A DNA stretch of 64,000 nucleotides from NCBI RefSeq assembly GCF_026248685.1, contig NZ_CP111040.1:248001-312000 (forward strand), given 5' to 3'. Made by a program: the position numbers and the translations under genes. Of the stretch, positions 13,891 through 38,977 are shown one piece after another. The notes under the pieces were generated by a model that saw only the letters and a list, made by a program, of their open reading frames with translations, had not been told where the DNA came from and searched no databases. The stretch's first letter is position 1; every line of letters starts with the position of its first letter. Source of the stretch: Haladaptatus caseinilyticus. Its GTDB lineage: Archaea; Halobacteriota; Halobacteria; Halobacteriales; Haladaptataceae.

Positions 13891-13979
13891 AGATTGAACT
13901 TCTAGCGTGAAACAATATTCTTTTAATTGCATGAAAAATCATACACTATGAGCGTTGTTTGAATGTCTTGTACCTAGCT

Positions 13980-14087
13980 ATGGAACGAACTTTTGGAGAC
14001 CACCTTGGCGAACCCCGGAGCAAGAAGCAATTTTGGACAACTCTCTCGAAGACCTCGTCAGATCAGGTGAGGATTCAACTCCAATGA
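13980..14087 (+). pseudogene. Short ORF cut off by an IS right end (gene remnant)
   Basis: A 35-codon frame (MERTFGDHLGEPRSKK at its start, 13980) whose TGA stop at 14085-14087 is the terminal TGA of the IS1341-type right end that follows. It probably is the residue of a gene interrupted by the element. The family is not recognised and the frame is short enough to be chance. Confidence 0.25.
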
Positions 14088-14118
14088 CATCCTCCCCGGC
14101 GTAAACGATGGGGTTTTC
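14085..14118 (-). repeat. IS1341-type right end (copy 1)
   Basis: Plus-strand TGACATCCTCCCC followed by a GC-rich segment. Read on the minus strand it ends GGGGAGGATGTCA. It lies just beyond the 3' end of the minus-strand tnpB remnant, where the right end and guide-RNA scaffold of such elements are expected. Copies 2 and 3 share the terminal GGGGRGGATRTCAC. Confidence 0.6.
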
Positions 14119-14905
14119 TCCAAGAGGAATACTTGACTGATTGGTTCGGTTTTTAGACGCATACGCACCGAGCGTCATCTGTGTCGGTGCGCTCTGCTTG
14201 GGTCAGTCTTACGGTGGTGTCACAACCGCTCCCTTCCCGTGGTAAGTCATCCTCACAATTTCCAAGTGCAACTCTCTTCTCACGGGTTCAACCCGTTGCG
14301 TAATGCTTGCGGCGTCACTGATATCCGTCTAAAACGTCGAAACGCGACAGTTGTCGTTCGTACAGCGGAACTCCGCTTGCGACCACCCTTTCCGATGTGA
14401 CGACATTCATGACATGTTTGGCTTGTGTAGGCGGGGTTGATGTATTCGACGGGGATACCTACGTCCGTTACTTTGTCCTCGATACGGCTCTGTAGCCGCG
14501 CAAAGGGCCATGCGTGCAACCGGCGGTTCATGTACTTGCCGTAGTTCAATCGTTTTCGGAGGGACATCAAATCCTCCATCACGATTACCGGATTCTCGAA
14601 TCCAGTAGCGTAGTCTACCACATCACGATTGGCTTCTCCACGATATCCATCAGTGCATTCTGGTAGTAGTTGAATCGCTCGTCAATTCGCCAATCTACAT
14701 TGCGTTCCTGTAGTCGCCAAAAGCGTGGTGGACATCTCCTTTCGGAGGTGCTTCGCACGCCTGTCACTCCAAAGAACGGGCCTTGTCAGTGTACTATGCT
14801 TACGGCCACAGGCCGTAATGAGCACAGTCTCACTGATATCAAGTTCGACTGGTGTAGTGTCACCGTCCGTTGTTGGTTCGTCAGTCGATTGCTTGATGGT
14901 GACTT
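14119..14905 (-). pseudogene. Degenerate TnpB (IS200/IS605, IS1341 group), minus-strand remnant
   Basis: A C-terminal half of a TnpB RNA-guided nuclease in several frames. From high to low coordinate: a segment with TPVELDISETVLITACGRKHS and RAKHLRKEMSTTL (to about 14710); a frameshift to RLQERNVDWRIDERFNYYQN; another frameshift to VVDYATGFENPVIVMEDL and NPAYTSQTCHECRHIGKG; and a further frameshift to the second half of the zinc finger, FRCTNDNCRVSTF. A TAG then replaces the expected Gln before TDISDAAS. The N-terminal half is missing; the sequence beyond about 14905 is a different TnpB remnant in opposite orientation. The gene is clearly dead. Confidence 0.8.
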
Positions 14906-15197
14906 GGAGTACCCGATTTTCCCGACAAAGACTGCTATGTATCGACATTCCCTGTAGATATTAACGCGGTGGCGAACATCGTCACTCGCGTAGACCCGTA
15001 AGGTAAGAGCGTTTCATAGAACTCGAGATGCAATAACACATCACTGGATGGGAACGGTCGTGATACCGCCACAGTATACCGGAAATCAAACGCGAAACCT
15101 ACACGGATGACGCTTTCGGCGTCCTCAGGTTAGATCCACAGTAGCAAGGCAGATCACCTTAAAAAAAGCTCAGGTGTGTAGACTGGGGAGGATATCA
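14906..15197 (+). pseudogene. TnpB C-terminal remnant with right end, plus strand
   Basis: A plus-strand frame over 14912-15003 reads PDKDCYVSTFPVDINAVAN and ends IVTRVDP-stop. This is the tail of a TnpB zinc finger and RuvC C-terminus, where DINAAANI is the family motif. The next 190 bases resemble degenerate 3' sequence of an IS1341-type element. They end in a right end, GGGGAGGATATCAC, at 15185-15198. No upstream part of this TnpB remains; it abuts the minus-strand remnant head to head, so two different copies were fused by deletion or nested insertion. Confidence 0.65.
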
Positions 15198-15198
15198 C
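15185..15198 (+). repeat. IS1341-type right end (copy 2)
   Basis: GGGGAGGATATCAC. Its terminal TCA (15195-15197) is, on the minus strand, the TGA stop codon of the DUF1616 gene. Confidence 0.6.
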
Positions 15199-16451
15199 GA
15201 CGTACTATAATCACCTTCGTGAGAAGCAAACAGTCCGTCGTCGGTTGTTGTCGAAGTAGTTGTACTGGTGCGCTGAGTTGTCTGCCTTGTTGTGAACCCG
15301 GTTTGTGATGTCGTCGTTGTGAATCTAGGTTGGGTTGTGGTTGTTCCAAAGGTGGACTGGGAAGTGGTTGTCGTAAATGGTGGTTGGGTTGTTGCGCTGC
15401 TTGTTTGTGTTTCTGTATCTGGCGAGGATGTGCTTGAGGGTGTGCTAGTTTCAGTAGGTTGGGTTTCCTCATCACCTTCACTTTCATCATCACCGCCGTT
15501 TGTGGTTCTAGCTTCTGTCGCGCTACTCTGTTGAGAAAGCCAAAGTCGCAATACTTTGTATGGGCTGCCAGATGGTTCGCCTTTGTATAGTAACAGGCGG
15601 ACCCGAACATTATCGCCCGAAAGGGACCGATCAGTAGTGAAAGTCACCTGCTTTTTCTGCTCAGACTCGATTGTCACCTGCTGTTCGCCAATCTGTGTTT
15701 GTTGGCTCACACTCCCATCTTGAACTCGCTCTAATACTGCCACAACAGTGTACCTTGTCCGCTCACCTTCGTGGTTAGTAACGTTAACCGTTAATCCACT
15801 ATCGAGATCAACTTGATAGAATGTCTCTGTGTTACTGTTGATATCTTGCCCTTCAATATTGAATTCAGTAAACTGCTCCCCCTGTGGTGGGTTAAGAACT
15901 GCAAACCCAACGCTACTCGCGACCAATAGAAAACTAATAACAATTCCAATATTTATCATTGAGGTCGTTTTTCCACTCACTCGTCTGTCTGTTGAATTAA
16001 AGAGGAGTCCGGGCAATCCGGGCGAATATCGTTGATAGGAAGGCACTCTCCAGCGGCGAATAAAAGCAATAAGAGTTGATAAAATTGTAAAACAAACAAC
16101 TCCAACTAAAATCGGCATCAATCGGACACCCCATGGTGTGAAATTCGCTAACGCCGCAACCATTGGCACAATAGCGATACTTGCTACGACAGCGAGACCA
16201 ACTCTTTCAGGGCCGCCAACTGCATACTCTACATCGGTTGTGTCGTCTCCAAATACTCGAATCTCACCTTCTCCACCTTCTGGGAAGAGCGCAGATATAA
16301 AAACGTATCCCGGCAAAAATACGACGAGCGGTAGCACGAGTGCAACACGCAATCGCCCACCGACCCCTGCAATCACTGCAAATCCGCTTATACCGGTCAG
16401 TATGAGGGTTAGCACGAGATCTATAAACCACCAGCGGCTATTCGTACTCAT
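15195..16451 (-). CDS. DUF1616 membrane protein with Thr-rich C-terminal tail
   Basis: 418 residues. Four hydrophobic helices lie in the first 140 residues, including the family stretch VALVLPLVVFLPGYVFISALFP, followed by a basic loop and a fifth helix near 165-185. An extracytoplasmic beta-rich domain (about 190-315) then gives way to about 100 residues dominated by Thr, Ser, Pro and Gln (from about 320). The first part matches DUF1616, common near haloarchaeal glycan genes. The tail looks like a mucin-like O-glycosylation target or a wall spacer. The stop codon lies exactly in the IS right end at 15185-15198, so the 3' end of the gene has probably been replaced by the element. A TATA box at 16477-16487 gives an almost leaderless transcript. 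Confidence 0.8.
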   Translation of the reverse strand: MSTNSRWWFIDLVLTLILTGISGFAVIAGVGGRLRVALVLPLVVFLPGYVFISALFPEGGEGEIRVFGDDTTDVEYAVGGPERVGLAVVASIAIVPMVAALANFTPWGVRLMPILVGVVCFTILSTLIAFIRRWRVPSYQRYSPGLPGLLFNSTDRRVSGKTTSMINIGIVISFLLVASSVGFAVLNPPQGEQFTEFNIEGQDINSNTETFYQVDLDSGLTVNVTNHEGERTRYTVVAVLERVQDGSVSQQTQIGEQQVTIESEQKKQVTFTTDRSLSGDNVRVRLLLYKGEPSGSPYKVLRLWLSQQSSATEARTTNGGDDESEGDEETQPTETSTPSSTSSPDTETQTSSATTQPPFTTTTSQSTFGTTTTQPRFTTTTSQTGFTTRQTTQRTSTTTSTTTDDGLFASHEGDYSTS

Positions 16452-16476
16452 TGTAATCTAGGTCGCGAGAAACGGG

Positions 16477-16487
16477 TTTTATTATAC
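16477..16487 (-). promoter_or_regulatory. TATA box for the DUF1616 gene
   Basis: Minus-strand GTATAATAAAA, centred about 30 bases upstream of the ATG at 16451. It fits a leader of only a few bases. It has the same core as the elements at 8331, 26858, 28514 and 37196. Confidence 0.55.
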
Positions 16488-16496
16488 GGCTCCTAA

Positions 16497-18218
16497 TCAG
16501 TGCTCGGATCGAATTTCGTCTACTTCATTATCGTCAGTTGGTAAATGAAGAACGTCAATTGGACTGACTACCGTTTCAGAGCATTGACCAACCCAACCGA
16601 CCATATCATTAATCCGAAGCTTGTGTCGAGGCGGTAACTCGTGAATCGACTCGTACTCCGGAAACAGTCGCTGATCCAAATTATACCGGTCGTATACCAA
16701 CTTACGGTCCGGCCATGCCGGTTCGAAATTCTTCACGAATGGAAGTTTTCGTCGTGCAAATCGCTCCATTTCCGAAAGGAGTGTCGACATATATGGCCGG
16801 TCTGGCGGTCGGTGGCGGAAGATATCTGTATCTAATTGCCGAATCGCACGGATGAATGTCGCTGTGCTACGGTATTCCGGTGGTGTCTGCAGATGCCACT
16901 CCAATAGTTCTGTGTCTGCTGCAATGAATGATTCAAGGTAGTTGTCCGCGAGATGTGTGCGGAACGGAATCGTGGGTTGATTGCTAATACTGAACAGCGA
17001 CAATGCATTTTGTATTGAGTCAGTGCGTTCCCAACATCGGTCGAATTCATTGGCAATCGCATCGCTCACGAATTCATTAGCTGCGTCCAAGTCATCCGTA
17101 TACTGCTCGGCGATGAATCGGCTCTTATCGGGAAGGTAGCCGAAATTGTCGAACGAAGCTTCAACTGGATCTGGGTCCATTTCCATCTGCTTCAGTGGAA
17201 TACGCTTCCCAAGTAATTCAAACTCCTTTCGCTTTTGTCCAAACCCACGGAGAAGCGTATCAAATAGGAGACCATGATACATTGTATCTACTTCGATGTC
17301 ACTGTTGTATCCCGCGTGGTGGATGTGGATTGATTCTTTGATGCCGTTAGTGTCTCTGACCTTTTCCTCACCGGGAACGATGTAGCGGTCATTCGTTACT
17401 AGTGTAGTATGATTGACGCCATACTGCTTGGCCAGTCGTCGAGCGACTTTAACCTCCTGTGCATCTGGCACGCCGACCGTATAACAGTGCTCAATTTCTG
17501 GAAACTGAGACAATAGTGTCCGCGAGTCATATCCTGCAGACAGGAGCAACCCCTTCCTCCCAGGTTGACGCGACCGGCGGCGGATCGCTCGCTGCATTCG
17601 ATCTGCTAGCTCGCTCGCGTAGTCCATCTTCTGTTCATTATAGACGAACCGGTCAAGTTCACCAACTTCGTCTCGTGTTAGATAACCATCAAATGAAGTA
17701 CGATGAAGCTCATGAAACAGCGTTTTGTTACCAAGAACGACACCCATGTGCAGAAATTCGCCAACCGATTGTCTGCGCATCGTTGGGTTATCAATGGTTT
17801 TGGCGACTTCTGCTGCGTCCGAACCAAACACTCGAACCCCAGGACCATCGGTATAAAAGCATTCCCACGACCGAATTGGATCAGTGAGAACGACGGCGTC
17901 TCCCTCATGTTCGATAAATGCAAGATAGGACCCGTTGAGAGCTTCAATCGCTTCTTTTCCCTTTTTTTCATACTGTTCAAGCAACCAGCGAGCAGGCTCT
18001 GACCATCCACGTTTATTTGGATATGCCTCTCCCCAGATAATGCACGATCCGCGCTCTCCAGAATAAGAAGCGCTTCGTCCAGGAATCCCAAGTCCAGTAT
18101 CCCGAATTCCAACTGTTGCAATGTCGCTTGTTACAACATCATCAAACTCTCGGTCAGAACGGAATCGCTCAAACTCATCCCGGTCGCCGAATACACCGAA
18201 TATTTCCTTATTCATCAT
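16497..18218 (-). CDS. Asparagine-synthase-like amidotransferase lacking the glutaminase cysteine
   Basis: 573 residues from the ATG at 18218 (a second ATG at 18215 is equally possible; a GAGGTG lies just upstream, and a longer TTG frame to 18296 is less likely). The N-terminal 190 residues follow the class II glutamine amidotransferase fold (MNKEIFGVFGD, LNGSYLAFIEHEGD), but no Cys occupies position 2. The C-terminal part has the ATP-pyrophosphatase loop as SAGYDSR (about residue 225) and the family helical region after it. Without the Cys nucleophile it should use ammonia, or work as an amide/ester-forming ligase like other asparagine-synthetase homologues. In sugar clusters such enzymes can amidate uronic acids, which fits the dehydrogenase at 8479; this is inference. 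It is transcribed away from the FkbM gene at 18852. Confidence 0.75.
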   Translation of the reverse strand: MMNKEIFGVFGDRDEFERFRSDREFDDVVTSDIATVGIRDTGLGIPGRSASYSGERGSCIIWGEAYPNKRGWSEPARWLLEQYEKKGKEAIEALNGSYLAFIEHEGDAVVLTDPIRSWECFYTDGPGVRVFGSDAAEVAKTIDNPTMRRQSVGEFLHMGVVLGNKTLFHELHRTSFDGYLTRDEVGELDRFVYNEQKMDYASELADRMQRAIRRRSRQPGRKGLLLSAGYDSRTLLSQFPEIEHCYTVGVPDAQEVKVARRLAKQYGVNHTTLVTNDRYIVPGEEKVRDTNGIKESIHIHHAGYNSDIEVDTMYHGLLFDTLLRGFGQKRKEFELLGKRIPLKQMEMDPDPVEASFDNFGYLPDKSRFIAEQYTDDLDAANEFVSDAIANEFDRCWERTDSIQNALSLFSISNQPTIPFRTHLADNYLESFIAADTELLEWHLQTPPEYRSTATFIRAIRQLDTDIFRHRPPDRPYMSTLLSEMERFARRKLPFVKNFEPAWPDRKLVYDRYNLDQRLFPEYESIHELPPRHKLRINDMVGWVGQCSETVVSPIDVLHLPTDDNEVDEIRSEH

Positions 18219-18851
18219 TCTCACACCTCTTTTCACTATTGGAATGTCGTCCCGTGTCACGACGATTCCTGGTGGTCGACAGAATTCGTCTTGCATCAGT
18301 TAATCTCGTTCGTGTCACGGTTGGCTCTATTCATAGCTATCGTGTTTATCGTGGTTAACTATACACAGTATAATATCATGGCTATTGTGTTTAGGAACAA
18401 CTAAAACCTGTTTTCTTGCTTGGTCCATCTCTCGGTCAGATCAGTGTTTTTGACCAAATTTGTTTTTACTGACTCATTTTCAGTTACTATCAGAGGGTTC
18501 TCACATGTCCTTGGAGAATCACCCTCATCTGATTTGGTTTCGTTTTAATCTTCATCATTATCTAGTCATCTGTTATTGTATGAGTATTCCAGTAGTCAAG
18601 TTACACTATCACAGTTAAATCAAAGTTCGACTTCTAGCTTAAGCCGGGGTACCAAGCTGTACGTAGGTAATTTCAGAAAGCTCTGGTTCATATTAATACT
18701 CAACAAGTTTTATTCATCGATCTAAAATAATTCAATATGTACCAAAATCGGAATGCAGATCGTATTATGAACCTATTAAGCCTCTTTTGTGACTTTCTGC
18801 GGCGATTTATCCGTTATATATATTTATGATTCCCCCTCCAGATTGTCCCAT
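18219..18851. other. 633-base AT-rich divergent promoter region
   Basis: Lies between the asparagine-synthase-like gene (minus) and the FkbM gene (plus). An imperfect inverted repeat at 18489-18532 pairs ATCAGA..GGGT..TCTC with its complement. A TATA box for the plus-strand gene lies at 18814-18825. No coding potential was recognised. Confidence 0.4.
18814..18825 (+). promoter_or_regulatory. TATA box for FkbM methyltransferase
   Basis: TTATATATATTT, about 25 bases before a predicted transcript start near 18845. It supports the ATG at 18852 as start and excludes the upstream GTG at 18789. Confidence 0.5.
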
Positions 18852-19658
18852 ATGCTTAGTTTGGAGAAACGGGCCGCAAAAAGCCACCTCTGGAATTTAT
18901 GCAAACGTGTGGGCGTTGCGCCTCTTCTCGCGACTATCTATTGGCAAACCAAGCTTGCGATCCATCTCTGGTCCGTATCAATGACAATCAAAGGTCAAAC
19001 GGCCGAATTCGCAGCTGATACGCGGACTGAGTATCAACGTGCTACATCCCTTGTTGGTGAGCTTGCAGTAGTAGAATCACTACTCGATGATGTCCAAGAG
19101 TCCGACGTCGTATACGATATTGGTGCGAATATTGGAACGCATACTTGCTTTATTGGAAAGCGTCTCAAGAGTGGTATGGTTGTCGCATTTGAACCCATGC
19201 CGAAAAACGCGACTCGCCTCAGGTATAATCTTTCAACAAATCTACCAGCCGATCGATGGCAAATCGCTGAATTCGCACTTTCAAACAAAGACGGTTCTGG
19301 AACACTCGCGGTCAAGAGCCAGAATTACGGCGAAGGAAAGCACTCTTTGTCCGCAGATGGCGAACTCAAAATCGATGTGATGCGGGGTGAAACACTAATC
19401 GCCAAAGAACGATTTCCGACACCAGATATTCTAAAAATTGATGTTGAAGGTGCGGAATTGCAGGTTCTAGAAGGGTTTGGTGAGCAGCTCTCCGACATTC
19501 GTATCGTGTATGCAGAACTCCACCACGACTTGAGTGAGAAGTACGGAACCTCCACGGATGAGATCGAAGCGTACCTTCGCAACAATGGATTTGAGATCGA
19601 AAGACTTAGCGAGCGGTCGGATGCCTACCATATCAGAGCCGTTCAGAAGCAGCAGTAA
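18852..19658 (+). CDS. FkbM family methyltransferase (copy 1)
   Basis: SAM-dependent O-methyltransferase family, probably methylating a sugar hydroxyl of the surface glycan. 268 residues from the ATG at 18852. The N-terminal 70 residues are basic and partly hydrophobic. Then comes the SAM-binding motif VVYDIGANIGTHTCFIGK (about 90-107), an acidic loop VAFEPMPKN, and the family block LKIDVEGAELQVLEGF near residue 200. It has the same length and layout as the gene at 22912 (FYDIGAYIGSYTCFAAK; VKIDVEGAEVDTIHGL), so the two are paralogues. The pair flanks the secreted beta-helix and deacetylase genes. Confidence 0.85.
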   Translation: MLSLEKRAAKSHLWNLCKRVGVAPLLATIYWQTKLAIHLWSVSMTIKGQTAEFAADTRTEYQRATSLVGELAVVESLLDDVQESDVVYDIGANIGTHTCFIGKRLKSGMVVAFEPMPKNATRLRYNLSTNLPADRWQIAEFALSNKDGSGTLAVKSQNYGEGKHSLSADGELKIDVMRGETLIAKERFPTPDILKIDVEGAELQVLEGFGEQLSDIRIVYAELHHDLSEKYGTSTDEIEAYLRNNGFEIERLSERSDAYHIRAVQKQQ

Positions 19659-19694
19659 TAGTCCGAGGAACAGATTATAGCCGGTCTGTGATAA

Positions 19695-21236
19695 TTAGAA
19701 CTCGTTACCCCAGCCGTCGTAGCCGTCAGAGGACCGGTCGTCGATACCGTTCTCAAGATGAGATTTCTTGACGTAGATATCTTTTGCCTCATCTTTGAGT
19801 AGCAGACCCACATCACCACGTCGTGAACGAGCAGAGACTCCTTCAAACCATGTTCCCTCGCCACCGTCCTCGATTGGGTGGTCTTCGGAGACGTAATCTC
19901 CTTCGTAAACAAGTACGTCGTTTCCGAAGTTTGTCAGTGCGCGTCGGCCTTTTCCACCTCCATGATTGACATTCACACTACGGAACTCACACCCATCACG
20001 GTCGTTGTGGATCGCACTCCGGCTACCATTTGTTGGTGCTTCACCCGTAACAGTCACATCTTGCAAGTACACCGGCTGATCACCTTCTTTGATTTTAATG
20101 GCCGGCCCGCCACCGCTCTCGTGTTTTACCTGGGTGTGTTTGATACGGGTTTGCCCCCCAGACGAACGGATGGAAATCGCAGCTGTTGGTTCATCTGTGC
20201 GCACAGTAACCGTTGAATCTACAATATAACAGTATTCTGCACCGTTCGTAACCCAGATCGAGGGACTTTCTCTTACGTTGGTTTGGAAATCAACATTGCG
20301 TGCGACGAGCACATTTCCTTGCTCCATGCGAAGGCCGCGCTGTCCGATTCCATGTGGATCTTGTTGATCGACGATGATTGTCGCGTCTTTGATGTAGCTT
20401 CTATTCCCACCGAGACGGACGTTCGCACCCATGCTGTTCTGAAAGCGTCCTCCTTCGATTTGAATTGAACCGGAACCGTTTGCAGCATAAAGGCCATTAT
20501 CCGGGAAACTTCCGAGAATGCAATCACGGAACGTCATCGTCCCCTTGTTATAATCGTTACAGAGGATACCAGTTGGACCACGCCACAGTGAGTCTCCAGG
20601 CGTTTCTCCGGTCCAGTCTGCACCATCGGGTGCCTCGAACCGTTCTACGATCCCCTCACCGTCAGAATCGGTAATGACGAAGCGTGCTGGGCCAAATGTA
20701 CCACTGTCATGTCGTCCAATGATCTCGATATCCCGAACGATGAGCCCATCAGTTATTTCTGCTTCAATAACACGGATGCCTGTTTCGTCAGCCGTTTGGT
20801 CGATGGTGAAGCCCTCTATGCGTAGATCGGTGCCCGGGTCATAGTCTACGCCCATGCGGAACAACCGATGGTTTCCGTCACCCTCATCGTCGAATGTATG
20901 GTAGTTTGCAGGGACAATTTCCGCGTCGTCACCGACCATGCCGAAATTCTTGAAGCCAGTGAAACGGAACTGTTTGTCCATATAGTAACGTCCCGATGGG
21001 AAATAGAGCAGCGTATCATCATCTGCATACTCTTCAAGTACGGGCGTAATAGACTCATCTCCACTGTCATCTGCTCCCACTTCCGTCACATCAATAACAG
21101 TACCATACTGATCGTCATATTCTGACTTATTAGCAGATGCAGAACCAACAATTGCGGATGATGCTGCAATTGCTCCAGCTAGTTTAAGATAAGTTCTACG
21201 AGACGTTGCATTTCGATTTCGCTTGTCTGACGCCAT
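19695..21236 (-). CDS. Tat-exported right-handed parallel beta-helix protein
   Basis: 513 residues from the ATG at 21236. A Tat signal (RNATSRRTYLKLAGAIAAS) ends in an Ala-Ser-Ala region near residue 35. The rest is a pectate-lyase-like right-handed beta-helix: the first part resembles the glycosyl-hydrolase-28-like start (VIDVTEVGADDSGDESI, LLYFPSGRYYMD), then many short beta turns of the form xDCxxGSFPDNGLYAAxGS. Such proteins bind or cleave acidic polysaccharide. Catalytic residues cannot be assigned by eye. It is convergent with FkbM copy 1, 36 bases apart, and divergent from the polysaccharide deacetylase gene, so all three may process one glycan. Confidence 0.8.
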   Translation of the reverse strand: MASDKRNRNATSRRTYLKLAGAIAASSAIVGSASANKSEYDDQYGTVIDVTEVGADDSGDESITPVLEEYADDDTLLYFPSGRYYMDKQFRFTGFKNFGMVGDDAEIVPANYHTFDDEGDGNHRLFRMGVDYDPGTDLRIEGFTIDQTADETGIRVIEAEITDGLIVRDIEIIGRHDSGTFGPARFVITDSDGEGIVERFEAPDGADWTGETPGDSLWRGPTGILCNDYNKGTMTFRDCILGSFPDNGLYAANGSGSIQIEGGRFQNSMGANVRLGGNRSYIKDATIIVDQQDPHGIGQRGLRMEQGNVLVARNVDFQTNVRESPSIWVTNGAEYCYIVDSTVTVRTDEPTAAISIRSSGGQTRIKHTQVKHESGGGPAIKIKEGDQPVYLQDVTVTGEAPTNGSRSAIHNDRDGCEFRSVNVNHGGGKGRRALTNFGNDVLVYEGDYVSEDHPIEDGGEGTWFEGVSARSRRGDVGLLLKDEAKDIYVKKSHLENGIDDRSSDGYDGWGNEF

Positions 21237-21422
21237 CAAAATCGAAAAAACAAGCCCGGGTATTAGTTATCAGGGTCTTAGTTCACTTTCTCCCTGTGTT
21301 CCCTCTGTTGGAAACGTTGTAAACGGTCTCTAACCGGCCGCATTTCCCCCTGGTTAACAGTTTACATCGTAGTCTTAAGCGCCATATAAGAAAATACCTA
21401 TGTCTGTTTTGGTAGGGTAGCG

Positions 21423-22736
21423 ATGAAACGACAGACTCGACGTACGTTCCTGACGACGGTCGGTGCCGCCGGTACTCTTAGTCTTGCTGGTTGCTCCGCC
21501 CTTAGCGACTCTGATGGTCAGGAGACAACCTCAAAAACTACCAGTCAAACGGGATCGCCCTCCACAACGTCTGATAACGGTAAGGAAACTACCACGCAGC
21601 CAAGTCAAGGCCCACAAACCTTCGAAAGCTTCGAAAAGCTTGGCTCTTGGAGTGCCGTCGATAGACAGGGGAAGCTCAAGAAAAGTACAAAACAAAAGTA
21701 CGAAGGATCACAGTCGGCTCACATTGTTGGAAGTCAGCAAACAAAAGAGGGCCACATTTACCGTGCAGATTTTGCACAGGATGGTAGTCCGGAAGACTTC
21801 AGCAACAAAAATCTCTCTCTGGCATTCAAGTGTACATCGCATGATTTCGTGAAGATCGCGGTTCAGCTGTATGCTCCTGATCGCGGCCACATCGTCGAAA
21901 TGAAGCGGACTCTCTATGGGCCAAAGGGGAAGTGGGTTCGTGTTAATCTCGGTGTCACGAGTGCTCAGCGACAGCAAAGCGTTGATCTCTCGAAGGTGTA
22001 TGAGATGAGAATCATCGGTCGTCCAAGAGACCCCAATACAAGTAAGCCCATTGAATTCTATGTTGATGATATGAAAACCGTTCCTGCACCAAAGAAGGGA
22101 ATGGTGATGCTTACTTTCGACGATGGCCTCGAATCTCATTTCACGAAGGCCCATAAAATGATGAATAAGTATAATTTCGGCGGCGTTGACGCCATTATTA
22201 CGGATGCCGTTTACGACGACGGCTTCCTAACACAGGGTCAAATGCGTAAAATGGTCGAGAGCGGTTGGGATATGATTGCCCACCCGAACACCCAGGCACA
22301 ATCGATGAACCAACGACCGGCCAAAGAGCAAGAGCAGCTCATGATGGAATCCAAAAATTGGCTGAAAAAGTATGGATATAACGGTCACAAATATATGGCC
22401 GTTCCGAAAAATGTCCTCGGACCGAATACGTTTGACCTTGCTCAGAAGCATTTTGATGCAACGCTTTCATTCGGTGCGGCTCCAAACGCAGCTCCTGTTA
22501 TTAAAAAGGACACCATTGTCTCGCGAATGTACGGGGATAGCAGCGTTCAACAAACCAAGAAGATGATTGACTACGCAGCCAAGTACAAGCAACTGTCCCC
22601 CTTCCTGTTCCACAAAATCGGCGGGCAAGATGGATTCCCAGAGAAGAAGTTTGAGCAGATTCTGAAGTATATCAAACAGAGTAATGTTGAAGTTGTCACG
22701 CTCACAGATCTGGCTGAGCGCAACATGCTCATCTAA
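21423..22736 (+). CDS. Tat lipoprotein polysaccharide deacetylase
   Basis: 437 residues. The N-terminus MKRQTRRTFLTT has a twin-arginine signal and a lipobox LAGC with Cys24, so the protein is lipid-anchored outside. A Ser/Thr linker (about 30-65) leads to a beta-sandwich carbohydrate-binding-like domain (about 65-220). A NodB/CE4-like domain follows with TFDDG (about 229-233) and an AHPNT segment that stands for the metal-binding HxxxS/T motif. CE4 enzymes remove N-acetyl groups from GlcNAc-containing polymers, consistent with the amino-sugar pathway in the locus. A TATA box (CATATAAG, about 21383-21390) gives a leader near 10 bases. It is divergent from the beta-helix gene. Confidence 0.85.
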   Translation: MKRQTRRTFLTTVGAAGTLSLAGCSALSDSDGQETTSKTTSQTGSPSTTSDNGKETTTQPSQGPQTFESFEKLGSWSAVDRQGKLKKSTKQKYEGSQSAHIVGSQQTKEGHIYRADFAQDGSPEDFSNKNLSLAFKCTSHDFVKIAVQLYAPDRGHIVEMKRTLYGPKGKWVRVNLGVTSAQRQQSVDLSKVYEMRIIGRPRDPNTSKPIEFYVDDMKTVPAPKKGMVMLTFDDGLESHFTKAHKMMNKYNFGGVDAIITDAVYDDGFLTQGQMRKMVESGWDMIAHPNTQAQSMNQRPAKEQEQLMMESKNWLKKYGYNGHKYMAVPKNVLGPNTFDLAQKHFDATLSFGAAPNAAPVIKKDTIVSRMYGDSSVQQTKKMIDYAAKYKQLSPFLFHKIGGQDGFPEKKFEQILKYIKQSNVEVVTLTDLAERNMLI

Positions 22737-22911
22737 GCATTTCTCAACGCGGCTTTGTCTACTTTTGTGGTTGTAAGAAACAGCTGTGCGTCAAAATTGT
22801 CTTCCCGTCCTGTCGTCGTCATATCGTCACTGCTTAGATCCTCATTTTGCTTTCAACCGTACTCAATAGGGGAAGTAGTCTCACAATCGAATAGAGAGAA
22901 TCTCAAGACAT

Positions 22912-23721
22912 CTATTTTTCCGCTCGAATAAAGTACTCCTCGCCCCGTTGGTGTATTGTTTCGACTGTAAACCCATAATCCGTTAGCGCCCTTCTAACGT
23001 CGTCCTCATTCGCATTATACTCCCCAATAAAGGTTGGATGTACTTCGCAATATACTAACCGGCACTCGGGCCGTGAGAGCGTCTCTGAAAGACCATGAAT
23101 GGTGTCCACTTCTGCACCTTCCACGTCAATTTTGACAACGGTTGGTGGTGGTACCTCGCCTGCCTCCACTAATTCATCACCACGTTTCAATATGACTTGC
23201 TCTGTTCCACTCTTGGAAAGTTGTGCAACCCCATCCGTCGAAAATCTCGCCTTTCCTGATTTGTTTGAAAGTGCTTCTTGTCGTATCTCTGCATGTAAGC
23301 TGTTACGTGTGAGATTTGCGTTAATCTGAACGGCTTTTTGCTCACGTGGTTCAAAAGTAACGACCTGCCCCTCCGAAATCGCCTTTGCGGCAAAACAGGT
23401 GTAGCTCCCGATGTATGCGCCAATATCATAAAAGACATCTTCTGGCTTTAAGCGAGAGAGCAAGTCATCTAAAACGGGACGTTCGTCGACAAGTGTCCTA
23501 TAGTGTCGGTAGTCATCCGCATTTGTTGCATAAAAGTTCAACTTGACGTCCCTAACTTGCTGTGTGTATCTTCCACCACTGAAGCGAAAGAGAAGCTGCC
23601 AGTATACTTCTGAAAGCGTCGATTGGAGGCCAAGGTGGTTTATGATTGATTGTATCGGTGGTGTGGCAAGCACACGTCGTCCAGCTCGTAACACCTTAAC
23701 TGGGAAGTTGGTAGAAGACAT
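22912..23721 (-). CDS. FkbM family methyltransferase (copy 2)
   Basis: 269 residues. Motif I is VFYDIGAYIGSYTCFAAKAI; VTFEPREQKAVQINANL and VKIDVEGAEVDTIHGL are the remaining family blocks. It is paralogous to the gene at 18852 with matching length and a similarly basic N-terminus. SAM-dependent methylation of a glycan sugar is the likely role. The gene stands alone: 175 bases separate it from the deacetylase stop, and the region upstream is a 380-base non-coding stretch and an IS remnant. Confidence 0.85.
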   Translation of the reverse strand: MSSTNFPVKVLRAGRRVLATPPIQSIINHLGLQSTLSEVYWQLLFRFSGGRYTQQVRDVKLNFYATNADDYRHYRTLVDERPVLDDLLSRLKPEDVFYDIGAYIGSYTCFAAKAISEGQVVTFEPREQKAVQINANLTRNSLHAEIRQEALSNKSGKARFSTDGVAQLSKSGTEQVILKRGDELVEAGEVPPPTVVKIDVEGAEVDTIHGLSETLSRPECRLVYCEVHPTFIGEYNANEDDVRRALTDYGFTVETIHQRGEEYFIRAEK

Positions 23722-24100
23722 CGTTTCATATTGGATTCTCAGCCGATTTTAAAAAACTTCTGGGTTAAATAGTGAGTGGTACCGGTAGAATTCTCTTTGG
23801 ATTATCAAACCCTCCCGAGAGGTAATTAATCACTTTTAGGATCTGATTCATGCTGCCTGATTACCGATATGGCGAGAATCGGTAAACAACCGAAAAAGGA
23901 TATTGCTATTGTTCGGAATAACCATCTTATTCTCGTATTCGATATCGTAGTTGTTGCACTCCGCTATGTAATAGTCGGGATCATTAACGTTATCCCATTG
24001 CCAACTAAGCCGTTGACGTACGTAGCGTGTTTGTTGCCGTAGTCTATCTTTAAACGGCGAGCGTGAATCGCGTTCGCTTAGTGACGTAACTACCGTCAGT
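23722..24100. other. Intergenic region before IS remnant
   Basis: 379 bases, AT-rich. An 87-codon minus-strand frame (23848-24111, starting MAMQLTVVTSLSERD) crosses most of it, but it has no recognised family or promoter and is not called. The upstream AT-rich stretch at 23745-23790 should hold the promoter of FkbM copy 2. Confidence 0.3.
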
Positions 24101-24561
24101 TGCATGGCCAAAACTCAAACGCTTAGTACACACCGTGACGTGCCTAATATAATGAGTTACGTTGGCTTCCGGCACTTGCACGGAAGTACGAGACGCGCTG
24201 AAATCAGCGTCCTGAATATTTCGGGGCGTCGGTTCCCACAATCGGATGGAACACGGTTCATCGGATGCGGGGTTCGCGTCGTTCGCAAGCACGGTAAACC
24301 GCCCCCCTGGGCGGCTAAGTGTGACCGAACCGCCTTCGACCGCGAGGTTGACGCCTTGGGTGAGAGCCGCCCGGTGAAATCGGGCGGCGGTGACACGCTT
24401 GGTGATGGGAGCACCCGTGGCAGTGCCACAGGACGCTTTTGGAAGAGTGGTGGCGTGAAACCCGCGCTTTGACGCCGAAAGAGACAGTCCTAAAACCTGC
24501 TCGGTAGCGGGCCGGGTTTCCTCCTGTGTGGGGAAGTCCCGTTGTTTAGGATGGGGGGGAT
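24101..24561 (+). mobile_element. Degenerate IS200/IS605-type remnant (3' part with right end)
   Basis: A GC-rich island (about 24170-24540) between AT-rich neighbours. It contains a frame with ALGESRPVKSGGGDTLGDGS, resembling the C-terminal tail of haloarchaeal TnpB proteins, and ends in a right-end-like sequence at 24529-24565 (GGGGAAGTCCC, then GGGGGGGATGTCAC). A strong inverted repeat CCGCCC/GGGCGGC pattern at 24300-24385 is typical of the structured 3' end. No complete TnpB or TnpA is present. The assignment rests on the shared terminus and the tail pattern. Confidence 0.5.
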
Positions 24562-24566
24562 GTCAC
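24552..24566 (+). repeat. IS1341-type right end (copy 3)
   Basis: TGGGGGGGATGTCAC. Its TCA at 24563-24565 is the TGA stop codon of the flippase gene on the minus strand, the same arrangement as copy 2 and the DUF1616 gene. Confidence 0.55.
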
Positions 24567-26782
24567 TGAGCAGACGTCGTCGTCAATGTGGTTGTTGCTA
24601 TTGTCGGAAACGATGAAGTTGTCGTACTTAATGAAGTTGTAGTAGTGCTCAATGGGGTTGTAGTCCTGCTAGACTGTGTCGTCGATCCAGTGCCTGGTGC
24701 TTCGGTCGTTGAATTACTACTAGATGTCATTGTAGTCGTAGGACTAGTTGTAGATGGCTGGGTAGTTGTTTCCGATGTGGTTGTGGATGGTTGAGTTGTA
24801 CTAGTTGTGGGCGGTTGGGTCGTAGTTGTGGATGGTTGTGTCGTACTGGTTGTAGATGGTTGAGTAGTAACTTCTGATGTTGTTGTGGGCGGTTGGGTCG
24901 TACTGGTTGTGGATGGCTGAGTAGTTTCTTCCGGTGTCGTCGATGGTTGGGTCGTACTTGATGTCTCTGTCGGCTCCGCAGTTTCTTCAGGTGGTGTCGT
25001 GGATGGTGGTCTTGTTGTACTCTCTGGTGGCTTTGTCTCCTCAGCAGTCGTGGCTGGAGGGGTCGTACTGGTGATTGTATCAGTGGCTGTCGTGTTCGTT
25101 GGTGGTTGTGTAGTCGGTGCTGGATCGGAACTGCCGCCGAGCCCTCCTAATCCGGGGTTAAGGAATGCGTATCCAATACCCGAAATAAAGAGTAGGATTC
25201 CGGCGACAATCATCATTTTCTGTATTGAATCGGATGACATTGTATCGTTGTTGGCGTTTGCTTGAAGTGTTTCGGCACGAGAGCCGACTGGTTCAGGGAA
25301 CGAAGACAGCGTATTGAGGACTTCACAGACTCCCAGCGCACCCATTGCAAAGGCGAAGAATAGAAACACAATGAAGCCAAGTGGTGGGACGAGTACAAGT
25401 GAAAGCGGTACTTCGATTCCAAAGAGTTCTGGTCGGACGTCAAGAAATTGTGCTAAGACAAAGATAGGTGGTGCGGAGAGAACTGTTGTTGCAATAACCC
25501 GGCCGAGTCGGGCATCTGACAAGGGGTCAAACCCAATTCTTCGTGCACTCCATAAATGGAAGACAAACATCGAACCATATCCCATGCTGGTAGCAATTGC
25601 CGCTCCGTGCATTCCAAAGCGAGGAATAAGAATGAGATTGAGAATTAGATTTATACCTGCCGCAACTCCCGTGGCGATGATTGGATATTTCAGATTACCC
25701 TTTCCTTGTGCTATCGCAAGGATAGGTCGCGCAACTGCAAAACCAAGCGTCCCTGGCAAGAGAAGCAATAACGGTGTGATCGCTGGTGTAAAATCGGAGC
25801 TGAAATACACTGGGACAGCAACATTCGCGAGTGCTGCAAGACCTATTGACATGATACCAGTAAGAAGGAATGTGTATCGCGTCGTTCGTGCCGCCAATTT
25901 CGATATTTTCTCCGTTTTGTCGTTCGACCACAATTCAGAAGTTGAGTGGACAAATACCGTCTGAAGTGCCAGTGGAATGAACCAAAGAAACTCAGCAAGC
26001 TTTAGTGCAGCTCGGTAATACCCGACTTGTTTGCTCCCTGATATCAATTGGAGCATAAGGATATCGACGTGGTATAGCGACATAAGCAAGAATATTAACA
26101 CAACAGATAGCGAATTGAACGTAAGCATTGTGCGCCGCGGGAACTTTTCTGGAGTTGTTCGGAAGACTCCTCGCAAGGAGGTCCGTCGTGCGATTATTGT
26201 CAGCCCTGCGACCGTGACCACACCCCCAGCCGCGATTTTTCCGGCAAGTGCGCCGTTTACACCAAATCCAAAATGAACGAGTGGAATCGCTACTGCGACG
26301 AATGCCAGTTGCTGCAGTACTTTTAGTGGCTCGGAATATCGTTCTAATCCAAACCCCATTAGCGTTCGCCGAGAGTAAGCACGGAATTGATCAGTTATCA
26401 CAAGAATTGTGAGGACGTAAAAGTACAGCTCGAATCCTGGCCCGAACACTTTTTCGACTAATCCAACCCACGTTGCAAGCGCGAGAACAATCGCTCCAGC
26501 TACTGAGAGCGAGAATGCTAGCCGGAAATAAAACCCGACAACATTTTCTTCCCAACAATCCATATCTCGATCTTCGGCAAGGAATTTTCGAACTCCATCA
26601 GCGACGCCGGAGCTTACGAGAATCATAAAGAGTGAGAACACCGAGAGAACGGTAGTGTACACACCAACGCCTTCTGGTTGGAGAAGACGGTAAAGTATCG
26701 GTGTCGTCAGTAATCCAACGATGAGTGTAAGTACTTTAGTTCCTGCTACCGATAGAACTCCACTTAGAATACTTCTCTGCAT
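24563..26782 (-). CDS. Oligosaccharide flippase with an extra helix and Thr-rich mucin-like tail
   Basis: 739 residues. Residues 1-500 form a MATE/Wzx-type polysaccharide flippase with about 14 hydrophobic helices (starting QRSILSGVLSVAGTKVLTLI). It would move lipid-linked oligosaccharide across the membrane. Such proteins are usually about 480-500 residues. This one adds a further membrane helix near 520-540 and then about 190 residues of almost only Thr, Ser, Pro, Gln and Glu, in repeats like TTQPSTTS. The DNA of the tail (about 24700-25110) is an imperfect tandem repeat. The stop codon coincides with an IS right end, so the 3' end may be truncated. A promoter element lies at 26858-26870. 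Confidence 0.85.
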   Translation of the reverse strand: MQRSILSGVLSVAGTKVLTLIVGLLTTPILYRLLQPEGVGVYTTVLSVFSLFMILVSSGVADGVRKFLAEDRDMDCWEENVVGFYFRLAFSLSVAGAIVLALATWVGLVEKVFGPGFELYFYVLTILVITDQFRAYSRRTLMGFGLERYSEPLKVLQQLAFVAVAIPLVHFGFGVNGALAGKIAAGGVVTVAGLTIIARRTSLRGVFRTTPEKFPRRTMLTFNSLSVVLIFLLMSLYHVDILMLQLISGSKQVGYYRAALKLAEFLWFIPLALQTVFVHSTSELWSNDKTEKISKLAARTTRYTFLLTGIMSIGLAALANVAVPVYFSSDFTPAITPLLLLLPGTLGFAVARPILAIAQGKGNLKYPIIATGVAAGINLILNLILIPRFGMHGAAIATSMGYGSMFVFHLWSARRIGFDPLSDARLGRVIATTVLSAPPIFVLAQFLDVRPELFGIEVPLSLVLVPPLGFIVFLFFAFAMGALGVCEVLNTLSSFPEPVGSRAETLQANANNDTMSSDSIQKMMIVAGILLFISGIGYAFLNPGLGGLGGSSDPAPTTQPPTNTTATDTITSTTPPATTAEETKPPESTTRPPSTTPPEETAEPTETSSTTQPSTTPEETTQPSTTSTTQPPTTTSEVTTQPSTTSTTQPSTTTTQPPTTSTTQPSTTTSETTTQPSTTSPTTTMTSSSNSTTEAPGTGSTTQSSRTTTPLSTTTTSLSTTTSSFPTIATTTLTTTSAQ
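24700..25110 (-). repeat. Imperfect tandem repeat coding the flippase Thr-rich tail
   Basis: Units of about 24-48 bases based on GTTGTGGATGGTTG(A/G)GT (plus strand) repeat with variation and encode ThrThrGlnProSerThrThrSer blocks. Perfect identity between neighbouring units over 15 or more bases makes slippage and copy-number change likely. Confidence 0.7.
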
Positions 26783-27103: not shown

Positions 27104-28411
27104 CTATAAGCTTAGTAATTCGGCGTAGAGATGGACAATATCGACACAAACACGCTCCCACGTGAATTGCTTGGCGTGTGCTTCGATTCTATCTCGATTC
27201 CAATCTTTACGAAGTGCACGAATTATTGCGTCTGTTAATGCGTCGTGGTCGTCTGGAGTATCAATGAGGAATCCATGATCTTCAGAAGTGACGACTTCCT
27301 CGCTTCCACCGTTGATTGTCGAAACAACAGGTGATCCACAGGCCATCGCTTCTAACTGCACGAGACCAAAACTCTCACTATAACTTGGAAGGACGAATGC
27401 GTCACAGGCGCTCATCCAGTATTTCAACTTCTCATTAGATACATATCCGAGTAGTTGAACATGGTTTTCTAAATCAAACTCCTCGATTTTTTCTTCAAGT
27501 TCGGACTGCATGCCGCCGTGGCCACCAATTGCACATATCACGTCTCCTTCCTGCTCTACGATTTCGGGCATGACATCAACCAGGTGCTGAAATCCTTTTC
27601 TCTTTTTCAGATGCCCAAGTGCGAAAAGCAGCTTTGTCTCGCTTTCGATACCAAGTTCCATTTTTGCCTCAGCTTGTGGTACCCTATGTAATCTCTCCTG
27701 ACTGAAGCCGTTTGGAATATAATACACTGCATCATTGAATTGCTGGAGTGTGTCCTGATCCTGCCGGTTCACACGGACGATGGCATCAGCGTTTTTCCAT
27801 GTTTGATTTATTTTATCATTTGAGGATTCGAGTTGGTCAACAAATAGATCGTGGTTTTCATGAACTGTGAGAATAGACGGGATTCCTAGCTCGCGTGCGA
27901 GAATAGTCCCGACATAGCCTGCAGTCCAGGTCAAATGGCTATGTACCACGTCGAATTCAACAGGAATCTTAGAGACGACCTTTTTTACTCTTCGTGCGTG
28001 TTGGTCGCCAAGATATCGCCGGTGCAGGTCAATTGGCAAATAGAGTAATGGTGTGCTAATGACGGTGAGATTTTCTGGTTTATCTTCTTGATTAATCTTC
28101 GCATTTTTGCTAAAAGGTTTGGCGTAATCTATTGGGAGGTATTTTGAGATATCTGCAAACCGGTTGTATCGAACGAGGACGTATACTTCGTTGAAATAAT
28201 CGGCAAGAACATCTACTTGCCCCTTAACAAAGTGATTATAGCTGTGTGAAACAATAAGTAAGTTCTTGTCCCCTAGAGCCTCCAGATTGTGGCTTTGCGG
28301 TACATCCCCCATATCCGGTGGTTCGGTAATCTGCGTGTCCGCATCACTCGACATAACTAGAGCAACTTCGTGGTCGATGTTTATTATCGGGTGGCTAAGT
28401 ATGTCCTCCAT
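27104..28411 (-). CDS. GT4 family glycosyltransferase
   Basis: 435 residues as drawn; an ATG at 28354 would remove 19 residues and is equally plausible because neither has a clear ribosome site. GT-B fold: N-terminal domain with LLIVSHSYNHFVKGQVDVL, VVHSHLTWTAGYVG and TVHENHDLF; C-terminal donor-binding domain with NGFSQERL, ALGHLKKRKGFQHL, LLGYVSNEKLKYWM, and the family signature PSYSESFGLVQLEAMACGSPVV. Retaining GT4 enzymes transfer sugars from nucleotide donors at the cytoplasmic side. It is divergent from the GT2 gene at 28556. Confidence 0.88.
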   Translation of the reverse strand: MEDILSHPIINIDHEVALVMSSDADTQITEPPDMGDVPQSHNLEALGDKNLLIVSHSYNHFVKGQVDVLADYFNEVYVLVRYNRFADISKYLPIDYAKPFSKNAKINQEDKPENLTVISTPLLYLPIDLHRRYLGDQHARRVKKVVSKIPVEFDVVHSHLTWTAGYVGTILARELGIPSILTVHENHDLFVDQLESSNDKINQTWKNADAIVRVNRQDQDTLQQFNDAVYYIPNGFSQERLHRVPQAEAKMELGIESETKLLFALGHLKKRKGFQHLVDVMPEIVEQEGDVICAIGGHGGMQSELEEKIEEFDLENHVQLLGYVSNEKLKYWMSACDAFVLPSYSESFGLVQLEAMACGSPVVSTINGGSEEVVTSEDHGFLIDTPDDHDALTDAIIRALRKDWNRDRIEAHAKQFTWERVCVDIVHLYAELLSL

Positions 28412-28555: not shown

Positions 28556-29470
28556 ATGCCCCCGACTGTGAGCGTGATCGTGCCAACATACAATCGGGCA
28601 CACTCGCTGCCTCGAACCATTGAAAGCGTTCTTTCCCAGACACTTGAAGATATAGAACTCATCATCGTTGATGATGCATCTGACGATAATACAACAGAGG
28701 TCGTTGCGTCGTATGACGATGACCGAATCCGCTTTTATAAACACGAAGAAAATCAGGGCGCAAGTGCCGCACGTAACACAGGGATTGAGCACGCAGAGGG
28801 ACAGTACATGGCGTTTCTCGATTCAGATGACGTATGGCTCCCGACAAAACTCGAAAAGCAAGTTCTTACTCTTGAATTGCGATCTGATGACTGGGTTGCT
28901 GCCTACTGCAAGGCAGAAACGGTCCACCCAAACGGTCAAAATGCGATTGTAAAGTGGGCTACGCAGCTTATTTCACGACGAAATAAAACTGAAGGTGCAG
29001 AGGGTGGAAAAGAACTCATCGGTTCGGTCCTTGATGATACTCTTCACACAAGTGCCGGATCTTCTCTAATTGTAAAAAGTGATATTGTAAGGGAAATTGA
29101 TGGTTTTGACGAGTCATTTAACCGCTTTCAGGATCCTGAATTTCTCATTCGTGTGCTTAAACAGGGTAAACTCGCATGCGTCAATGAAACTCTTCTCCTT
29201 AGATACGAAACTGGTTCCCCTCCAGCAGATTCGGTTGCAAAAGCAGATGATCACTACCTTCGGACCTTTGCTGAGGACGTTAAACGCCTCGAAAAGCAGG
29301 GAATAGATGTGACTGGTGCACATAATTATATTCTCTCCAGACAATATTTCAATGAAGGTAAATTTCGGACTGGATTCCGATATCTCAAGCGTTCGAAAAG
29401 GCCCGAATTACGGCAGATTCCAGGCTTAATAATGAATCTGTATGCAGGAGCAAGAGCAAATATTGAATGA
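28556..29470 (+). CDS. GT2 family glycosyltransferase
   Basis: 304 residues. Begins directly with the GT-A motif VSVIVPTYNRAHSLPRTIES; nucleotide-binding IIVDDASDDNT, GASAARNTGIEHA and the DxD motif as FLDSDDVWLP. Acceptor-side residues near GGFDESF... (DGFDESFNRFQDPEFLIR) follow the family pattern. It likely adds a sugar in the glycan built by this locus. An ATG at 28546 lies in another frame and stops quickly. The stop overlaps the next small gene by ATGA. Confidence 0.88.
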   Translation: MPPTVSVIVPTYNRAHSLPRTIESVLSQTLEDIELIIVDDASDDNTTEVVASYDDDRIRFYKHEENQGASAARNTGIEHAEGQYMAFLDSDDVWLPTKLEKQVLTLELRSDDWVAAYCKAETVHPNGQNAIVKWATQLISRRNKTEGAEGGKELIGSVLDDTLHTSAGSSLIVKSDIVREIDGFDESFNRFQDPEFLIRVLKQGKLACVNETLLLRYETGSPPADSVAKADDHYLRTFAEDVKRLEKQGIDVTGAHNYILSRQYFNEGKFRTGFRYLKRSKRPELRQIPGLIMNLYAGARANIE

Positions 29471-37210: not shown

Positions 37211-37663
37211 ACCTGAATAATGGAGCGGGAATTACAGGACGGCCAGACTGTTTCTCAACGAAACCGTACTATCAACCTGCGACGGGTCCATCGTAGTATC
37301 ACCACATCGAATTGTGTAAATCGTCGTATCCGGACCACTCGCTCGATATTCTTCGTCGGGCTTGACACCCAACCTCGGTTATTAAAGTGAAATGTATCGT
37401 CCTCATGATCCAAAAGGCTCAGATCGGTCAGGTGGTCAGTAACGTCGCCATTTCCATTATCATGTATATCGAGACTGTGGTCTCGAATCAGTGTGATCGG
37501 CGAACAGGCACCTATCTGTAACAGCACGCGGACCGGTAGTACCGCGCGAATTCCCATCGTAGGCTTCGGCAATTGACACAAGTTTGTGAACTTCGATGGT
37601 TTGAGGATTTGAACGCTATTGCGGAGCCGGAAGATAGCCAAATGTAAATCAGTTGCCTCCGAA

Positions 37664-38977
37664 ATGCCGCATATGGATACCTTCGAGAGTCTAAAAGGAT
37701 TTTATGACCGCTACCCAGCAGAGTGGTCGGCGTGGCGCGAACTCGTGGACACCGTTGAGGAGACGGGTAGGGAGTTTGGGTTTCGCGAAATCGATGCACC
37801 GAGCGTGGAACCTACCGACCTATTTAGGGTAAAGTCTGGAGAAGACATCGTCGAGGAGACCTACAGTTTCGAAGACAAGGGTGGGCGTGAAGTGACACTC
37901 ATCCCAGAACAGACACCGACTCGGGCTCGACTGGTCCAACAACGTAAGGACTTGGGAGCCCCCATTAAATGGTTTGACACATCCAAACGCTGGCGTTACG
38001 AGGCGGTACAGAGAGGTCGTGACCGTGAGTTCTTCCAGACCGACTTCGACATTTTTGGCGTCGAATCCGTGGAGGCGGACGGGGAAATCATCGCCTGTGC
38101 TAGTACCATCTTCAAAAAGCTCGGTGTTGCTGATTCAGTTGAGTTTAAACTTAATGACCGTCAGCTGCTCGATGCATTGCTCCGAGGAATCGGCGTCGGC
38201 GAGAGCAAGGACGTAATGCGCGTCATTGACAAGAAGGAGAAAATTAGCCGCGATGAGTTCCTCGCCAAACTTGAAGCCGAGGGGGTTGACCGGGCAACTG
38301 CCGAGGAAATCGACGAACTAACCGCCATCAGTGGCGAGATGGAGAGCGCGCTGGTCGAACTCTCGGACAAAGCCCCCGAAAACGAGGCTGCGAACGAGGC
38401 AATCGACCGAATGCACGGCCTCTACGACGTACTGTCAGCTTATGGCGTCGAATCGATGTGTTCGTTCGACCTCTCTATCGTTCGAGGGATGGATTACTAC
38501 ACCGGTCTCGTATTTGAGGCGTTTGCCACCGAAAGTGACCTCCGTGCCTTGTTTGGCGGTGGTCGCTACGACGAACTCATCGGGCAGTTCGGTGGCCAAG
38601 ACGTTCCAGCAATCGGATTTGCGTTCGGCTACTCGCCGACGATGCAATTGCTGAAGGAACTCGACGAATGGCCGGAGGAAGCGATTTCGACCGACGCCTA
38701 TGTTCTGACGATTTCTGACTCCGTACGCGAAATCGGACTGGAGTATGCGATGGAACTCCGTCGTGGTGGACTGAAAGTCGAAACTGACCTCACCGACCGA
38801 AGTGTTGGGGAGCAGTTCGGCTACGCCGACCGCATCAACGCGGAATACACTATCGTCGTCGGCGAGCGAGACTTGAACGAGGGTGTCGTGACGGTACAGA
38901 ACATGGAATCAGGCGAGGAAGAAAAGGTTCCAAAAGATGAGGTCGTAGAGCACGTCCTTAAAATCCTGCCGCGTTAA
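37664..38977 (+). CDS. hisS: Histidine--tRNA ligase
   Basis: Attaches histidine to tRNA-His. 437 residues from the ATG at 37664; an ATG three codons later (37673) is equally possible. Class II synthetase motifs are present: motif 2 RYEAVQRGRDREFFQTDFDIFG, histidine-binding SIVRGMDYYTG and GGGRYDELIGQFGG, motif 3 AIGFAFGYSP, and a normal C-terminal anticodon-binding domain to LKILPR. The sequence is of the type expected for haloarchaea, and its base composition is higher in GC than its flanks, like the core genes. It stands alone. Confidence 0.93.
   Translation: MPHMDTFESLKGFYDRYPAEWSAWRELVDTVEETGREFGFREIDAPSVEPTDLFRVKSGEDIVEETYSFEDKGGREVTLIPEQTPTRARLVQQRKDLGAPIKWFDTSKRWRYEAVQRGRDREFFQTDFDIFGVESVEADGEIIACASTIFKKLGVADSVEFKLNDRQLLDALLRGIGVGESKDVMRVIDKKEKISRDEFLAKLEAEGVDRATAEEIDELTAISGEMESALVELSDKAPENEAANEAIDRMHGLYDVLSAYGVESMCSFDLSIVRGMDYYTGLVFEAFATESDLRALFGGGRYDELIGQFGGQDVPAIGFAFGYSPTMQLLKELDEWPEEAISTDAYVLTISDSVREIGLEYAMELRRGGLKVETDLTDRSVGEQFGYADRINAEYTIVVGERDLNEGVVTVQNMESGEEEKVPKDEVVEHVLKILPR

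Follow-up and report, generated by a model that had tools for sequence, protein, structure and literature searches.

The flippase gene and its locus

The window analyzed here, a stretch of 64,000 nucleotides from Haladaptatus caseinilyticus, lies on a contig of 607 kb that is probably a megaplasmid. A single uninterrupted open reading frame on the reverse strand (24563–26782) encodes a MOP-type flippase of 739 amino acids. From the N- to the C-terminus, the protein is composed of a core of ~484 residues with ~14 transmembrane (TM) helices (residues 1–484, 25331–26782; delimited by Pfam, AF2 and PDB fold matches), a loop with short helices assigned to the cytoplasmic side (residues 485–516, 25235–25330; AF2 secondary structure and deduced topology), a 15th TM helix (TM15; residues 517–541, 25160–25234; hydropathy, homologs and AF2) and a 192-residue tail rich in Thr, Ser, Pro and Gln (residues 548–739, 24566–25141; composition, AF2 and genus-wide position). 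All these segments are encoded on the reverse strand. A MOP flippase is usually no more than a compact core. Elsewhere in the same genome, flippases have reading frames of 480–568 codons and lack a tail of this kind. A frameshift or assembly artifact as the source of the tail was rejected because the frame is clean and the orthologs are alike.

Pfam matches were confined to residues 6–437 (Polysacc_synt, E 2.5e-13; MurJ, E 7e-9). The families matched by the core were Polysacc_synt, Polysacc_synt_3 and MurJ (PF01943, PF13440 and PF03023), and the curated cut-offs were exceeded for PF01943 (50.5 bits vs 28.2) and PF13440 (45.8 vs 23). Scores for the NCBIfam equivalogs were far below their cut-offs (HfsF, 41.9 vs 700; MurJ, 25.7 vs 235.55; WzxE, 25.7 vs 325). 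A search of solved structures with the flippase sequence returned no match, and a fold search was used instead. With the AF2 model, whose core has a pLDDT of mostly 80–95, Foldseek retrieved WzxE (E 3.9e-9, TM-score on target 0.83) and MurJ (E 1.9e-8, TM-score about 0.7–0.8). These structure matches place the protein in the MOP fold. The flippase is a Wzx-like member of the MOP superfamily and is predicted to flip lipid-linked glycans or sugar chains outward, which is probably its function and agrees with its gene neighborhood.

The flippase is surrounded by genes of polysaccharide synthesis. Upstream of it is a GT4 glycosyltransferase (27104–28411, reverse strand), with counterparts close to the flippases of Haladaptatus, Halomicrococcus and Haloferax, followed by a GT2 glycosyltransferase (28556–29470, forward strand). 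On the other side are an FkbM methyltransferase (22912–23721, reverse strand), a polysaccharide deacetylase with a lipobox and a Thr-rich linker (21423–22736, forward strand), a right-handed beta-helix protein (19695–21239, reverse strand), which is the most constant neighbor of the flippase, and a DUF1616 membrane protein with a Thr-rich C-terminal tail (15195–16451, reverse strand). A second FkbM methyltransferase, an asparagine-synthase-like protein, a DUF354 protein and a UDP-sugar dehydrogenase are also encoded nearby. The gene block after the flippase recurs in other Haladaptatus and, in part, in Haloarcula, Haloferax mediterranei and Natrialbaceae. The locus resembles an exopolysaccharide rather than a protein-glycosylation locus, because its gene set matches general knowledge of such sets, and we infer an exopolysaccharide as its product. 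An exopolysaccharide cluster is known in Haloferax mediterranei (PMC9769981, PMC8387396), which we do not equate with the flippase-type locus of that species.

Several other features of the region were recorded. The Thr-rich end of the DUF1616 protein is also present in the H. halobius ortholog (L101:11807-13105) and absent from the Haloarcula and Haloferax mediterranei orthologs. Between a membrane protein and the DUF1616 gene, positions 13950–15150 contain an apparently degraded transposase-like sequence that is TnpB-like by eye. No Rfam families were found in 13900–24700. A histidyl-tRNA synthetase-like gene is located at 37619–38977 of this plasmid-like contig, and hisS adjoins the tailed flippase on plasmids of Halomicrococcus (L134) and H. 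halobius (L143).

Composition, repeats and length of the tail

The tail consists of 42% Thr, 17% Ser, 15% Pro and 6% Gln, together 79%, and is disordered in the AF2 model (pLDDT about 30). The Thr-rich stretch begins ~6 residues past TM15 and is thus adjacent to a membrane anchor. The original prediction of an added helix followed by about 190 Thr/Pro/Ser/Gln residues is confirmed. Its placement of the tail was also correct, with the exception of the span given (24700–25110), which the real tail exceeds at both ends. Chance as the origin of this composition was rejected, the composition being common to all members of the genus. Sorting of the flippase by a PGF-CTERM signal (PGF motif, TM segment and basic end) was rejected as well: the protein has no PGF motif, ends in TTTSAQ and shows a hydropathy of 0.42 over its last 17 residues. 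Two N-glycosylation sequons are present, NTT at residue 563 (25088–25096, reverse strand) and NST at residue 690 (24707–24715, reverse strand), which is not above chance in this tail (2 observed vs 1.5 expected).

The DNA of the tail is repetitive beyond coding needs. Repeated 12-mers cover 45 positions of the whole tail DNA, compared to 7.1 ± 6.7 in synonymous-codon shuffles, and none of the 2,000 shuffles reached 45. Tandem Repeats Finder detected repeats only at 24780–24958 (reverse strand), the strongest tract, with periods of 21–57 and 73–86% matches. The best in-frame repeat offset is 19 codons, at which codon identity at identical residues is 43%. Therefore, the repeat is decayed, and its earlier description as near-perfect was overstated. 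As judged from these sequences, the repeats appear to have been copied first and to have drifted afterwards.

The end of the tail coincides with a remnant of a mobile element of ~510 bp (24054–24566), of which 86% identical copies exist on other plasmids. The conserved end of this element (GATGTCAC) is common to six copies with unrelated flanks, and the flippase stop codon (24563–24565) is located inside it. The insertion therefore set the last residue of the tail and the stop codon in the window genome. A continuation of a longer tail was looked for on the far side of the element and was not found there. Copies occur on plasmids of Haladaptatus, Natrinema and Halorubrum, and a partial copy is present elsewhere in the same genome (G000:C5:590415-590636). 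By eye, the ends of the remnant are IS200/IS605-type-like.

A change of tail length between strains had been predicted and was seen in a relative of the window species, Haloferax gibbonsii, where the single strain pair examined differs by entire repeat units of the tail. The flippase comprises 853 residues in strain ARA6, where it was read across the origin of the circular plasmid record, and 865 in strain LR2-5. The first 1,798 nt align without gaps at 99.2% identity, and all three in-frame indels (36, 18 and 18 nt) fall in the tail. Across ten close pairs, 0–2 gaps were counted in the core and 3–16 in the tail. The S-layer gene of LR2-5 acquired in-frame tandem duplications of 15 bp and 48 bp in a Thr-rich motif under virus selection (PMC9973310), and Thr-rich tracts can therefore change length quickly. 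After that gene, the flippase tail is a second Thr-rich coding tract with strain-to-strain length change.

The extra helix and the tail among relatives

Flippase homologs were found in 145 of the 342 genomes of the order. The nearest relatives are all from Haladaptatus, several of them on named plasmids; each species was represented by a single genome, and no close copy of the plasmid was found. Orthologs are present in all nine Haladaptatus genomes as open frames of 736–790 codons, each with the tail at the same position. Tails were also read in the frames of Halomicrococcus, a genus taken to be Halorussus from its named plasmid relatives, Haloarcula/Halomicroarcula, Haloferax and further families. 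About 20 Natrialbaceae-type orthologs with a core identity of 60–65% end after the extra helix, without a tail. The helix and the tail are therefore separable. More distant homologs have neither. On the tree, the tailed flippases group together, but at least six changes are required by well-supported branches, a count that does not separate gain from loss. A literature search, with subscription journals outside its coverage, found no description of tailed haloarchaeal flippases.

Among 75 sampled homologs, 37 have the helix and a tail, 22 the helix only, 13 neither, and 3 an extension without the helix; these proportions are not population frequencies because part of the selection favored long frames. 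A helix equivalent to TM15 is thus present in 59 of the 75, and it is standard in the subfamily even where the tail is lacking, contrary to the original prediction, in which a normal relative would lack it. The hydropathy maximum of TM15 is 2.28 (Kyte-Doolittle, over 19 residues), and the equivalent helix reaches 2.0–3.0 in every homolog that has it. AF2 builds TM15 as a helix with low confidence (pLDDT about 40–55); in a tail-less homolog the extra helix was likewise formed, and the confidence was still low.

All 37 tails rich in Thr, Asp and Asn and poor in Lys and Arg (0–4%) sit behind the extra helix, and no Thr-rich tail without this helix was found among the 75 homologs sampled. The three extensions without the helix contain 10–12% Lys and Arg and are charged, with a coiled-coil-like end. 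They belong to Natrialbaceae-group paralogs (L079, L080 and L081), in which an acidic linker is followed by the conserved charged coiled-coil-like segment IERQNERIE.QR.TIEQLIDELRRGR.

Sequons are enriched in the 37 tails when these are pooled (198 observed vs 117 ± 8 after shuffling), although repeat copying inflates the pooled count. The excess comes from several lineages with almost all of their Asn residues in sequons. Two tails, those of L082 and L071, are almost wholly composed of sequon repeats (IGDGNESDDGGS and DDNTTADNTT, respectively) and are candidate model substrates for archaeal N-glycosylation. In the tails of Haloferax, Haloarcula and one Halorussus-group homolog (L047), the tail closes with another hydrophobic segment, behind which Arg usually follows; an outer loop with an anchor at each end would be expected to look like this.

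Side of the membrane and possible role of the tail

Both termini of WzxE and MurJ are cytoplasmic, and the 15th helix should therefore end outside. In the flippase loops as assigned, with the AF2 helices split by hydropathy into 14 core helices, 20 Lys/Arg residues are on the inner side and 5 on the outer side. Taken together with this positive-inside distribution, the co-occurrence of helix and tail and the sequon enrichment in relatives place the tail outside the cell, a predicted location with strong but indirect support. The earlier proposal of an outside tail is thereby supported by the fold, the loops, the helix co-occurrence and the sequons of relatives. Comparable arrangements in the same genome agree with it: one protein (L022:1921-2976) combines a single TM segment, a Thr-rich linker and a malectin domain (PF11721), and Thr-rich stretches precede PGF-type C-termini. 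Regarding architecture and topology, a mucin-like tail predicted to lie outside is well supported for this haloarchaeal flippase of exopolysaccharide type.

The reading that we favor, and hold to be somewhat probable, is that the tail is a glycosylated extracellular stalk or brush on this flippase. TM15 would carry the C-terminus across the membrane, and the disordered Thr/Ser/Pro tail would project into the space under the S-layer. There, hydrophilic and glycosylated, it would most likely function as the Thr-rich spacer of S-layer glycoproteins does, holding the wall and the polymer away from the flippase exit and keeping its surroundings open. Selection would maintain the composition, which is hydroxyl-rich and free of positive charge, rather than the sequence, and the length would drift as repeat units are gained and lost in frame. 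Glycosylation and the spacer function are both inferred. The original prediction added that the tail could be O-glycosylated by the system it serves, which here would be of exopolysaccharide rather than protein-glycosylation type. Flipping itself appears independent of the tail, because Natrialbaceae-type orthologs in a similar neighborhood are tail-less. A recurrent mucin-like outer tail that is absent from close, helix-keeping orthologs offers a ready comparison for its role.

A cytoplasmic tail is the least probable alternative and very improbable. Here, the tail would be a disordered cytoplasmic extension behind a hydrophobic segment that forms a re-entrant or peripheral helix. The low model confidence of TM15 would permit this, and the charged extensions of L079–L081 show that cytoplasmic-type extensions exist in the family. 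However, depletion of Lys and Arg, sequon enrichment and terminal hydrophobic segments with Arg occur only alongside the helix, and the hydropathy of the helix is high wherever it is present. It is also improbable, if slightly less so, that the tail is a covalent acceptor, with the polymer flipped by the core joined to its Thr or Asn residues. The flippase would then be a self-glycosylated anchor that holds the exopolysaccharide on the cell, and tail length, altered by repeat slippage, would tune the coat. Many potential acceptor residues do lie beside a flippase exit, within a polymer locus, and the tails of several relatives are sequon-rich; against this, tail-less orthologs exist, and no oligosaccharyltransferase was recognized in the subset of window proteins that was scanned.

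Neutral accretion has to be taken more seriously. Thr-rich repeat DNA might grow and shrink freely behind TM15 without any specific job, because an unstructured, uncharged tail outside the cell would be tolerated. The tail sequence is unconserved, its length ranges from 161 to 334 residues across species, tail-less orthologs occur in the same kind of locus, and in the window a mobile element took over the stop codon and the tail end. Moreover, Thr runs are widespread in the same genome, as sampled by a T6 pattern search and 20 stretches, and the tail may be unspecific because such tracts are common there. Neutrality nevertheless accounts poorly for tails of at least 160 residues that are retained by each of the nine genus members and over deep branches, and for their strong clustering on the tree. 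The composition is kept, with 0–4% Lys and Arg throughout, across repeat units as different as TTQP, TETA, DNTTADNTT and DGNESDDGG. In the reading frame, the tails contain ~1.5% Lys/Arg/His and no stops, whereas the other frames show 40% and 28%. None of the 36 tails checked has an in-frame stop, and most have stops in other frames. Our interpretation is that selection acts on composition and leaves the sequence free, and we consider neutral accretion a serious rival that is possible but on balance unlikely.

The candidate glycosylated stalk has its closest functional analog, by likeness, in the Thr-rich O-glycosylated spacer unit of the haloarchaeal S-layer glycoprotein, which bears galactose-glucose disaccharides (PMC2913515). 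This spacer, the Ser/Thr linker of Sulfolobus SlaB (PMC6911244) and the flippase tail are all Thr-rich, disordered, located by a membrane anchor and predicted outside. In contrast to the other two, which belong to wall proteins, the flippase tail hangs from a polytopic transporter, is C-terminal to its anchor and has no folded domain beyond it. PGF-CTERM surface proteins of the same genome (such as L114, L118 and L120) likewise carry a Thr-rich stalk beside a membrane segment, but behind their stalk comes a PGF-TM-Arg signal at the C-terminus, which the flippase tail lacks. The tailed flippase is a transporter that may be a substrate of archaeal O-glycosylation, a process whose machinery was essentially unknown according to a review (PMC2913515).

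With Wzx/MurJ-type MOP flippases, the window flippase shares the core fold, the family assignment and the polysaccharide-synthesis neighbors. Known members stop after the core, in the cytoplasm, whereas the window flippase adds TM15 and the mucin-like tail. Haloferax Agl15 and AglR (PMC5867893) have a role in haloarchaeal glycan translocation, as predicted for the window flippase. They serve protein N-glycosylation, whereas the window locus looks exopolysaccharide-like and not agl.
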